DNA from: an uncultured Fluviicola sp.
Lineage (GTDB): Bacteria; Bacteroidota; Bacteroidia; Flavobacteriales_D; Crocinitomicaceae
Direction of reading: 5' to 3'
DNA length: 64,000 nt
Assembly (NCBI RefSeq): GCF_902168135.1
Contig: NZ_CABHOL010000054.1
Coordinates: 62,001 to 126,000 of the forward strand
In this document: piece after piece, positions 16,864 through 56,535 of the stretch
How positions within the stretch are numbered: position 1 is the first letter of the stretch
How the letters are laid out: each line of letters opens with the position of its first letter
Notes under the pieces: model-generated
The model's database searches: none
What the model was told of the DNA's origin: nothing
What the model saw: only the letters and a program-made list of their open reading frames with translations
Program-made: the position numbers and the translations under genes

Positions 16864-17041
16864 CCCGCAGAACGCATCTCGCAAATCGCGCGGATTTATA
16901 ATTAGTATATCCTCATCCTAAAGAGGAACGCAGATGATGAGCTGAACTTCGAATTGCAGCTAGAATTGCTGAATAAACTGTTCAAATTCAGTTGAGTCGG
17001 GAGAGAATATTTTTTCTGCGGAATCTGTGTGATCTGCGGGA
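16864..17041. repeat. inverted arms of a CTGCG word around 120 nt without a gene
   Basis: The 345-nt space between 16777 and 17123 holds, after the terminator, a left arm CCCGCAGAACGCATCTCGCA and on (16864-16895) and a right arm (about 17014-17041) whose reverse complement begins CCCGCAGATCACACAGATTC. The outer 8 nt of the arms match exactly and both repeat a degenerate CGCAGA/TCTGCG word. The middle (16896-17013) has no convincing reading frame. The layout is like that of the arms around the GxxExxY gene. Confidence 0.6.
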
Positions 17042-17086
17042 GAAATTATTGCGCCGTTAATTAGGCTGAAAACCCAAACGAATAGT

Positions 17087-27816: not shown

Positions 27817-27895
27817 GGGTTCAAGGGGTTCAAAAGTTTAAAATGTTCAAAGATAGTTTCTTTTAACTTTTTGAACGATCGAACATCTTGAACTA
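27817..27895. repeat. inverted arms of a TTCAA word
   Basis: The 81-nt gap between the GreA-like gene and the next gene is made of GGTTCAAGGGGTTCAAAAGT and on, facing CTTTTTGAACGATCGAACAT and on, so TTCAA words occur on the left and TTGAA words on the right. The last bases overlap the stop codon of the glycosyltransferase. Confidence 0.55.
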
Positions 27896-32128: not shown

Positions 32129-32159
32129 GAAGTATTCTTGGAAGCATAAAGATAATAAA

Positions 32160-32185
32160 ACCATATAGGAACATAGGGCACATAG
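32160..32185 (+). repeat. left inverted arm bracketing the GxxExxY gene
   Basis: A 26-nt arm (ACCATATAGG, AACATAGGG, CACATAG) built from a degenerate ACATAGG word. Its mate at 32667-32692 matches in reverse complement at 23 of 26 positions. Confidence 0.8.
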
Positions 32186-32247
32186 AAAGACTTAAGATAT
32201 TGTGGATTTTTTTGTTATCTTAAAGATATAATCATTATTCTATTTCT

Positions 32248-32655
32248 ATGACAAAGTCTTATTTAGATCAATTGACTTACGACATCATTGGAGCCGCTAT
32301 TAAGGTGCATAGTCAGCTAGGTCCTGGTTTACTCGAAAGTATTTATCATAAGTGCATGAAGATCGAATTGGCAGAAAGAGGTATTTCCTTTAAGACCGAA
32401 ATGACTGTTCCTATATTTTACAATGGCCAAGAATTGGAAACAGTACTACGGTGTGATTTATACGTTGAAAATTCAGTCGTAGTTGAATTGAAAGCTGCAA
32501 AGGCAATTGAACCAATATTTGAAGCACAGCTCTTAACTTACATGAAGCTTTTGGATTCACCCAAAGGTATTCTTTTAAACTTTAATTCTACTAACATCTT
32601 TCGGGAAGGCCAAAAGACATTCGTTAATGAGAAATACAGAGTTCTTCATGATTAA
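32248..32655 (+). CDS. GxxExxY protein (PD-(D/E)XK nuclease-like)
   Basis: A 135-residue protein with the namesake motif as GLLESIYHKCM (about residues 27-37), preceded by IIGAAIKVHSQLGPG. The later blocks LRCDLYVENSVVVELKAAKAI (D, then E-x-K) look like a PD-(D/E)XK nuclease core, and FEAQLLTYMKLLDSPKGILLNFN ends the fold. Family function is unknown. It is the only plus-strand gene in this minus-strand stretch and is bracketed by a 26-nt imperfect inverted repeat, so it may be a mobile or selfish unit. Confidence 0.9.
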   Translation: MTKSYLDQLTYDIIGAAIKVHSQLGPGLLESIYHKCMKIELAERGISFKTEMTVPIFYNGQELETVLRCDLYVENSVVVELKAAKAIEPIFEAQLLTYMKLLDSPKGILLNFNSTNIFREGQKTFVNEKYRVLHD

Positions 32656-32666
32656 TTATAATTTAA

Positions 32667-32692
32667 CTATGTGGCCTATGTTCCTTTGTGGT
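32667..32692 (-). repeat. right inverted arm bracketing the GxxExxY gene
   Basis: The mate of 32160-32185, with 23 of 26 positions matching in reverse complement. It begins 11 nt after the GxxExxY stop and reads CTATGTGGCC, TATGTTCC, TTTGTGGT. Confidence 0.8.
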
Positions 32693-32694
32693 AA

Positions 32695-32723
32695 AGAAAA
32701 GCCCTCAATATTACTTGAAGGCT
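32695..32723 (-). terminator. terminator of the VWA-domain gene
   Basis: On the minus strand a 9-bp stem (AGCCTTCAA with TTGAGGGCT, one G-T pair) and 6-nt loop are followed by TTTTCTTTA. It begins 8 nt after the stop at 32731. Confidence 0.75.
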
Positions 32724-48204: not shown

Positions 48205-48206
48205 AG

Positions 48207-48347
48207 GAATAATTATCAATTATCAGCGAGTTAATTATCAAGTTTAAGATCTTGGTAATTTAAAAGACTAAAAACAGATAGTACTAGCCCAACTGAAATG
48301 ATATTTGATACTTGATAATTCATCCATTCATCATTGATAATTATTTC
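48207..48347. repeat. 141-nt element with inverted ATTATCAA-word arms
   Basis: The left arm (48207-48242) reads GAATAATTATCAATTATCAG and on, and the right arm (48311-48347) in reverse complement reads GAAATAATTATCAATGATGA and on; both end AATTATCAAG. They enclose 68 nt with no reading frame. The element fills the space between two convergent genes. Confidence 0.7.
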
Positions 48348-49392
48348 AGAATCCGCTAAACTCCTTCGGACACTGATACCTTCTGCGCATACTCTTGCTG
48401 TTCACATTCTTGGAGAACAATACCTTTGTCGGGATTTCGAACAGGAGAGAAATTTCATGACTTCCGTAACTACTGGTTTTCAAACGGGAAATCGTCATGT
48501 CAAAATTATAAGTTACCCGCCACAAAGTTTCATACTTGGTACGCAGGTTCAAGCCAAGAGTAAAAATAAACGAATCGTATTGTTTGAAACTCATTGCTGC
48601 AGTTCGGTTGCGCATCCAGATCCCGATAATAAACGGCTGGCTGATGAAATTACTACCCACACTGAAAGTTCTGAATTCGTTCTGCATTTCGTAAACAATT
48701 CCCGGAGAAACCACAAATTCATTGAAAAGCAGGTTGGATGAACCATGGAATACCAATTTAAAGGGCAATTTTTCCGCATCTGCCAGGAAAGCATCCTTTG
48801 GCTGGGATAAATGATGAATCGCACCTCCAAGTGTTACGTTAAAGCGTTTAAATGCGCCTCTTTGTTTCCGGGTCGAACCGTTGAACCGAGCCACTAGCCC
48901 TGCGTTGAAGTCTGCATAGGAAACACTGTTGTAATTGGGTCTGTTGAAACTGCTTTCTTTAATTTTTCCCATCGTTTCGTCCAACTGATCGGAAAAAGTC
49001 AATTTCGACCAATCGATATTCTTAGTGATAAACCCGCCGCTCACACCGGCCTGCAGGATAAAATTCTTCGTATCAACAGGTCTGTATGAGTAATTGACAT
49101 ATCCGCCTGCCGTTCTCAGTAATGCTTCACCACCCACATCTGAATAAGCCATGATCCCAAGTCCCATTTTATACATGGTTTGTGCTTCGGCAGAGAAGGA
49201 AAAGGTATTGAACCTTCCGGGAATAGGTCCCCACAAAGAACGTGCGTTCAGTCTTATTCCAATTCCATTGTTGACAGCGGTCATGGAAGGATTGTAATAG
49301 ATCGGGTTGTTGTAGAACTGCGAAAAATTGGGGTCTTGCGCGTATGCGGATCCGGCAGTAATGAACACTATGAATAAAATCAGTCCTTTCAT
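48346..49392 (-). CDS. PorP/SprF-family T9SS membrane protein
   Basis: A 348-residue outer-membrane protein. The signal peptide is about residues 1-18. QDPNFSQFYNNPIYYNPSMTAV is the characteristic start of PorP/SprF proteins, and the rest shows beta strands of a barrel. Family members help export or hold partner T9SS adhesins with type B C-terminal signals. It starts 3 nt after the giant adhesin stop, so the pair is one transcription unit. Confidence 0.94.
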   Translation of the reverse strand: MKGLILFIVFITAGSAYAQDPNFSQFYNNPIYYNPSMTAVNNGIGIRLNARSLWGPIPGRFNTFSFSAEAQTMYKMGLGIMAYSDVGGEALLRTAGGYVNYSYRPVDTKNFILQAGVSGGFITKNIDWSKLTFSDQLDETMGKIKESSFNRPNYNSVSYADFNAGLVARFNGSTRKQRGAFKRFNVTLGGAIHHLSQPKDAFLADAEKLPFKLVFHGSSNLLFNEFVVSPGIVYEMQNEFRTFSVGSNFISQPFIIGIWMRNRTAAMSFKQYDSFIFTLGLNLRTKYETLWRVTYNFDMTISRLKTSSYGSHEISLLFEIPTKVLFSKNVNSKSMRRRYQCPKEFSGF

Positions 49393-56498: not shown

Positions 56499-56535
56499 AA
56501 AAATCCCTTCCCGGTTTAACCGGGAAGGGATTTTT
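56499..56535. terminator. strong hairpin terminator after the T9SS gene
   Basis: A stem of about 14-16 bp (AAATCCCTTCCCGG paired with CCGGGAAGGGATTT) with a 5-nt loop has A and T tracts on both sides, so it can stop transcription of the minus-strand gene ending at 56557 and possibly act both ways. It lies 22 nt after that stop. Confidence 0.9.

Follow-up and report, generated by a model that had tools for sequence, protein, structure and literature searches.

The window, i.e. the whole 64,000-nucleotide stretch of DNA analyzed here, contains a GxxExxY gene of 135 aa at positions 32248–32655 of the plus strand, assigned to the PD-(D/E)XK (Cas4-like) nuclease family by its open reading frame, its TIGR04256 and PF13366 matches, conserved columns and predicted fold. 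The open reading frame is intact; on both sides, its largest neighbors are minus-strand open reading frames. Two inverted arms bracket the gene. The left arm, positions 32160–32185 of the plus strand, consists of ACC followed by three degenerate ACATAG words whose starts are 8 and 9 nt apart (ATATAG at 32163, ACATAG at 32171 and ACATAG at 32180, as read from the sequence). The right arm, positions 32667–32692, is an inverted copy of the left arm; on the minus strand it shows the same spacing and also carries three degenerate words, the outermost being ACAAAG. The arms are 26 nt long, match at 23 of 26 positions (88% complementary) and lie 481 nt apart. The unit as a whole is intergenic and situated between minus-strand protein-coding open reading frames.

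The arm pair is on top of the inverted-repeat list for the 1-kb region and ranks second among gapless inverted repeats within 1.5 kb in the whole window. The top gapless hairpin, ahead of the arms, is a perfect 18-nt inverted repeat with a 1-nt loop at positions 56499–56535 and is probably a terminator. The gapped score of the arms is 18.5, and 0 of 2000 dinucleotide shuffles of both flanks reach it (maximum 14.5), which argues against a chance inverted repeat at this locus. The initial annotation of this DNA had described the arms, the degenerate repeated word in both of them and a lone plus-strand GxxExxY gene amid the minus strand. All three points stand, and the main observation, arms bracketing a GxxExxY gene, is confirmed.

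The putative peptide chain matches TIGR04256 with 139.4 bits (cut-off 35, E-value = 6.4e-41) and PF13366 (PDDEXK_3) with 137.5 bits (cut-off 22, E-value = 3.3e-40); PF13366 is its sole Pfam match at E ≤ 0.001. Among 42 sequences, E30, D70, E80, K82 and Y98 are invariant and Q94 is present in at least 90%. The PD-(D/E)XK motif consists of a catalytic D...ExK with an upstream E and a downstream Q..Y, and the window protein displays each of these elements (E30, D70, E80-x-K82, Q94, Y98). An AlphaFold2 model shows a mean pLDDT of 95. In Foldseek the top matches are 4ic1 chains (SSO0001, which we take to be a Cas4), with an E-value of 5.9e-4, a probability of 1.00 and a TM score of 0.52 by query. 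Weaker matches (E-value 0.018 and above) include lambda exonuclease and the Argonaute-associated Cas4-family protein ACE1. PADLOC Cas4 profiles give a weak match (E-value = 0.0018), and a PDB sequence search with the window protein gave nothing. Family and predicted fold support a predicted PD-(D/E)XK nuclease of the Cas4/RecB-like type. Cas4 proper carries a four-cysteine iron-sulphur site. There is no such site here because the window protein has two cysteines only, C36 and C69, which sets it apart from Cas4 proper. The dN/dS ratio is 0.00–0.08 in 16 of 17 pairs, the exception (L202/L005) having very few changes. As these ratios show, the protein is maintained by strong purifying selection.

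Word arms are found at GxxExxY loci well beyond the window. PF13366 matches fall at seven places in the genome that holds the window; at one of these the gene is broken and gives two partial matches. Inverted word arms are seen by eye at all seven. The words differ: CACATAG (window locus and broken copy), CGCAGAT, CGCAGAG, CGCAAAG/CACAGAG, CGCAAAT/CACAAAT and CACAGAT. A survey drew loci from 59 genomes (the same genome, genus, family and order; fragments and some weak places omitted) and from the best 80 of 548 named loci on genome contigs. There were 176 loci with a profile match and 174 after one duplicate and one locus without flanks were dropped. For the arm score, the 350 nt upstream of each open reading frame were matched, gaps allowed, to the 350 nt downstream in reverse complement; the best match gave the score, and the threshold was at least 14. 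This threshold is reached at 126 of the 174 GxxExxY loci, the best 80 of 548 named loci included, vs 3 of 181 control open reading frames. The controls are open reading frames of 90–220 aa, of which 4 of 182 reach the threshold; the figure of 3/181 is used because one of the four (L055) is itself a GxxExxY locus. Among the 48 of 174 loci below the threshold, some show words by eye (e.g. L001, L002 and L023) and others none. Other genomes of the phylum supplied an additional 29 loci in a ranking by likeness to the window protein (30 minus the window's own, possibly sharing species with the named loci), and 25 of these score at least 14. In both sets most loci carry arms, so the outcome that the initial annotation had named as a refutation, most loci being armless, did not occur.

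Eight distant plasmid-borne homologues, from five phyla, were also scored. Three reach at least 18 (L379 from Gemmatirosa, L380 from Bacteroides and L381 from Bernardetia) and the remaining five score 10.5–12. The genes of L379 and L382 are unannotated in their records and their ends were set by hand. In L379 the gene is flanked by two complete palindromic CGCAGAG units rather than by two single arms. The GxxExxY gene is co-directional with its neighbors in L380, between radA and a gene for an FAD-dependent protein, in L381, between the adenine deaminase and mannose-1-phosphate guanylyltransferase genes, and in L383, between fabD and fabG. Tandem pairs of GxxExxY genes are found at G031:C10:165220 and 165919 and at G148:C4:68698 and 69441. 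Phage or plasmid cargo is disfavored as an account of the gene: at E = 1e-5, tblastn finds matches in 8 plasmid records out of 72,556 and in 2 phage records out of 50,697 (both one virus), and no GxxExxY gene was confirmed in viral contigs.

The arm word follows the protein. In a tree of 170 proteins, neighbors have common words, and the words found along the tree are CACATAG; the sisters CATATAAG and CACAAAAG; CRCARAG; CGCAGAT; CACGAAT/CACAGAT/CRCAAAT; and CACGGAG. At the 140 loci with arms, the proportion of different-genome pairs with an arm similarity of at least 12 is 84% above 75% protein identity, 54% at 60–75%, 18% at 50–60%, 4% at 40–50% and 1% below. The 68 loci from the G-numbered genomes alone show a steeper fall, from 82% to 21% (of 191 different-genome pairs at 60–75% identity) and then 11%. 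A Mantel test on these 68 loci gives rho = 0.34, a value reached in 0 of 500 permutations. In these genomes, none of the 54 same-genome pairs with less than 40% protein identity have arms in common, which argues against a genome-wide word habit. Four word classes, defined after the arms were seen, label 130 of the 140 loci; over these 130 the tree shows 9 changes of class, against 50 or more in 1000 shuffles. For the 60 labeled loci of the G-numbered genomes the number of class changes is 6; free shuffling gives 16 or more and shuffling within genomes 12 or more. Paralogues that share a genome therefore each retain the word of their own clade. These comparisons show that the word is specific to the clade of the protein and not to the host genome. 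The use of a different word by each unit, which had been called odd, has an ordinary explanation: on the protein tree, each word goes with a single branch.

Arms are also conserved between distant homologues while the adjacent DNA is not. For the 489 pairs at 60–70% protein identity, arms are shared in 45%, the inner spacer (26 nt inside) in 0.2% and the outer flank (26 nt outside) in 0%. The corresponding values for 103 pairs at 70–80% identity are 72%, 1.9% and 1%. The CACATAG word is common to Bacteroidota and to MAGs labeled Acidobacteria, Pyrinomonadaceae and Ignavibacteriaceae. Covariation of this kind supports a putative recognition of the word by the nuclease.

Copies of the arms without a gene are found in other genomes. 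The exact pattern CACATAGNNACATAG is present in 20 of 247 genomes of the phylum, and its backward control is found at most once per genome. Because the gene's own arms can match the pattern, a cut of at least 5 hits was applied, chosen after the counts were seen. This cut is reached by the CACATAG pattern in 9 of the 15 genomes with a gene at least 53% identical to the window protein (up to 87 matches) vs 2 of 232 others; these two exceptions are G248 with 21 matches and G167 with 7. Seven of the 9 gene genomes over the cut belong to one genus, g47, and within g47 the cut is reached by 7 of 10 genomes with the gene and 0 of 4 without. In G132, many of the CACATAG matches fall in two local clusters. 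G124 and G210 have zero CACATAG matches and G198 has one; all three carry CATATAAG arms at the gene and give 33, 11 and 33 CATATAAG matches, respectively, in a search that allowed one mismatch and whose backward control gave at most 2 per genome. At least 5 CATATAAG matches are found in 9 of the 15 gene genomes vs 2 of the 232 others, all in g47. G079 and G230 have 17 and 8 CATATAAG matches without a gene at least 53% identical. Twenty regions were examined, 18 without and 2 with a GxxExxY gene (L317 and L325), and several g47 genomes display an approximately 130 bp gene-less unit with inner motifs in common, by eye, with the gene-bearing L317. The counts show that gene-less units bearing the gene clade's word reach tens of pattern matches in several gene-carrying genomes, mostly of one genus.

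In several genomes pattern matches far outnumber genes. This argues against the arms being operator, protective or regulatory sites, rather than ends, of a selfish or host-serving nuclease that is restriction- or addiction-like. Such a role would suit a fold near Cas4, lambda exonuclease and other nucleases, and DNA words that are clade-specific; however, the neighbors of the gene vary from record to record in six annotated plasmid records, and the explanation is improbable.

Four further sites in the window, 1846, 16864, 27817 and 48207, had been proposed to show the same layout without a gene. Three of these are upheld: an AGACTTA-type unit at positions 1846–1914 (3 of 1000 shuffles as good), a TTCAAA-type unit at 27819–27893 (0 of 1000) and an AATTATC-type unit at 48208–48345 (0 of 1000). 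The fourth, at 16864–17045, is a possible decayed unit of the RCAGAT type (GxxExxY class) but is not significant, with 512 of 1000 shuffles as good; by eye it shows only degenerate RCAGAT-like words. At the sites orthologous to 16864, G008 and G001 have another repeat-like sequence common to both (TGTCAGTTCGAGTGTCC...).

The words of the three units are those of a second gene family, PF05635 (23S_rRNA_IVP), the four-helix-bundle protein of 23S rRNA intervening sequences (IVS). PF05635 genes have arms scoring at least 14 in 18 of 33 and 9 of 20 loci, counts that stand without a control set of their own and are read against the 3/181 control open reading frames of the GxxExxY survey. About half of the PF05635 loci in the series L009–L011, L221–L250 and L359–L378 display inverted arms of tandem 7–9-nt words, which vary by locus. 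PF05635 words of the genus include AGACTTA, AGGATTTTAA, AATTACG and TTCAAAT, and those of the window's own genome are AATTATC/AATTACC. The AGACTTA word of 1846 is that of four-helix-bundle loci of the genus, not of GxxExxY loci; the TTCAAA word of 27819 is found at L372 and L375, and the AATTATC word of 48208 at L009 and L011 of the same genome. Given this agreement in word with PF05635 genes from the genome itself and its genus, the units at 1846, 27817 and 48207 probably belong to the PF05635 class and are not offshoots of the window GxxExxY gene. The earlier proposal that gene-less copies had been left behind finds support at an orthologous site and, in high copy, in some other genomes, where the word is the same, but probably not at these three sites. 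Since the PF05635 class has a like anatomy without the GxxExxY nuclease, word arms in general cannot be put down to this nuclease.

Most of the species examined (G001, G007, G008, G012 and G013) carry units at the sites of 1846, 27819 and 48208, with the word differing. The swaps are TTCAAA vs AGACTTA, AGACTT vs AGGATTTT and AATTATC vs AATTACG, and both arms change together. A unit kept at a site while its word changes may reflect repeated insertion at favored sites, homing or template switching between arms. Of five gene-less units whose folding was predicted as single-stranded DNA, four are far more stable than shuffles (z = −4.7 to −7.4) and the one at window positions 48205–48348 is only mildly more stable (z = −1.9).

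A second family with arms of like kind, unrelated to GxxExxY, could also mean that word hairpins are spread by host replication, repair or another transposase, the protein merely binding or riding along. The joint change of word in both arms at one site between species, as template switching could produce, fits this explanation, as do the lack of a known transposase within the unit and of a clear target duplication. It is nevertheless distinctly unlikely, in that within genomes the word class tracks the protein clade, and the protein is under strong purifying selection with its catalytic residues conserved.

The PF05635 link also brings in the RNA level. The 23S rRNA IVS is described as a small open reading frame between inverted ends, with terminal inverted repeats, and is proposed there to be selfish or mobile (PMC4990558). 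GxxExxY units resemble it in having a small open reading frame between inverted ends, and the PF05635 word class carries the IVS protein family itself. An element of this kind, in which the arms pair in the transcript around the open reading frame, is highly improbable for GxxExxY. The unit in the window is intergenic, between protein-coding open reading frames and not in rRNA, its protein is PF13366 and not S23, and G-U-compatible arm mismatches on the sense strand are not in excess (103 vs 127), which weakens RNA-sense selection on the arms.

Comparison of related loci bears on mobility. There are 64 pairs above 84% protein identity, many at orthologous places. DNA homology stops at or within approximately 10 nt of the arm edges in L091/L065 (two places in one MAG), L201/L193, L201/L005, L202/L193 and L193/L005. 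No clear target-site duplication is seen in five junction alignments of moved pairs. The moved pairs are old, with dS = 1.0 for L091/L065 and 0.84 for L201/L193, and therefore transfer or rearrangement could contribute.

At the site orthologous to the window locus, G008 has ACATAG arms around the 3′ end of the gene, visibly a deletion derivative of a gene-bearing unit. G007 has ACATAG arms and no gene, and G002 has a unit with a different, CACGGAG-like word. G013, G001 and G012 have no unit but approximately 95 bp of other, partly common, sequence (all by eye). The initial annotation had pointed to empty sites in related genomes; among relatives, no clean one was found at the window locus or at L003, where replaced sequence is present instead. 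At the L006 site, the relatives searched gave flank matches and many short dispersed-repeat matches. Orthologous sites are often occupied by units with a different word, which is not expected of random insertion.

Homing would account for an intergenic site that is filled in several species, in some with the gene and in others without it, and with differing words. In that case the nuclease would cut allelic or related sites that hold gene-less arms, recombination would copy the gene in, and the units would not transpose themselves. A gene relic at G012:C12:143866-143967 is reversed with respect to the intact gene that G000 carries at the orthologous site (L003), and inverted arms would permit such a reversal. 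Two findings make this reading unlikely: copies are present in unrelated contexts, where their homology stops near the arm edges, and some genomes have pattern matches in the tens, beyond what homing alone would give.

The reading preferred here, with a probability of roughly 0.6, is that of a miniature mobile element with a RAYT/REP-like layout built on an unrelated enzyme, in which the Cas4-like nuclease would recognize the word arms and probably move the units. The element would end in the two inverted arms, each made of two or three copies of a 6–8-nt word, with the nuclease as its sole gene. The nuclease may recognize the word of its clade within the arms, possibly when the DNA is single-stranded and folded into a hairpin. 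It may nick or cut at the arms, releasing or copying the unit. The unit would then be placed into new A/T-rich intergenic sites, and gene-less arm pairs would be mobilized in trans, much as RAYTs are believed to mobilize REPINs. Recognition of the word is the step to which the covariation speaks; we infer the cutting at the arms and the movement of the units by the nuclease. The earlier idea of a mobile unit with a PD-(D/E)XK-like protein is borne out as far as a general, apparently mobile gene-plus-arms module and a nuclease by family and predicted fold.

In RAYT/REP systems, a small gene is found between two inverted repeats, repeats and protein coevolve, the abundance of gene-less repeats goes with the gene, and inverted gene-less doublets form hairpins (PMC2817692, PMC3116915). 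The GxxExxY gene likewise is found between coevolving inverted cognate repeats, by analogy and with arms in 126 of 174 loci, not all. Its gene-less repeats likewise track the gene (9/15 vs 2/232 genomes, 7 of the 9 in one genus). However, the enzyme is unrelated: it is a PD-(D/E)XK nuclease, and no HxH motif, the signature of HUH tyrosine transposases, is present in the window protein sequence. The arms are direct repeats of a 6–8-nt word, whereas a REP is a single palindrome with a GT(A/G)G head. Toward Cas4/RecB-type nucleases, the likeness consists of the E..D..ExK..Q...Y residues and 4ic1 as the nearest solved fold, and the difference from Cas4 of a length of 135 aa with two cysteines. MITEs of DDE insertion sequences also place short gene-less inverted-repeat copies beside a longer gene-bearing element, but the sole gene of the GxxExxY unit is not a DDE transposase and its copies show no clear target-site duplication. 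The STRR of cyanobacteria are 7-bp tandem repeats able to form hairpins (PMC2670836), and heptanucleotide repeats are reported in Geobacter metallireducens (PMC2700814). In the portions of these two papers at hand, their function is given as unknown or putatively regulatory and no cognate gene is proposed, whereas the words described here are tied to two protein families.

A wider reading is held tentatively, at somewhat under even odds. The units may represent an unnamed class of prokaryotic mobile DNA whose sole gene is Cas4-like with clade-specific word recognition. The same arm design would serve the unrelated PF05635 protein, so that two lineages would have converged, jointly seeding hairpins intergenically across several phyla.

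GxxExxY is a named protein family, with no function stated in the parts of the literature found. A literature search, with most subscription journals outside its scope, gave no paper linking GxxExxY to word arms; six of the word strings are absent from the literature searched, and PDDEXK combined with miniature inverted repeats turned up only REP work in the text available. Cognate arm words suggest a direct hypothesis for GxxExxY, in which it is the sequence-specific nuclease of a mobile element; substrates are already at hand, as are natural controls of specificity. If correct, it would add a second, unrelated enzyme to REP/RAYT-type systems, connect proteins with the intergenic word repeats of bacterial genomes and make available a set of Cas4-like nucleases that have diversified in nature and whose specificities can be read.

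Some units are associated with other repeats. In L006 and L210, a palindrome (GGCGCCTACCGGTCGCC) within the RCAGAT arms is part of a dispersed repeat with many matches in several genomes of the genus. L322 and L323 are two similar CACATAG units in one genome that lie within a longer inverted repeat (about GTCAAACGCATTA) flanked by short direct repeats, the latter possibly a target duplication of a carrier element.
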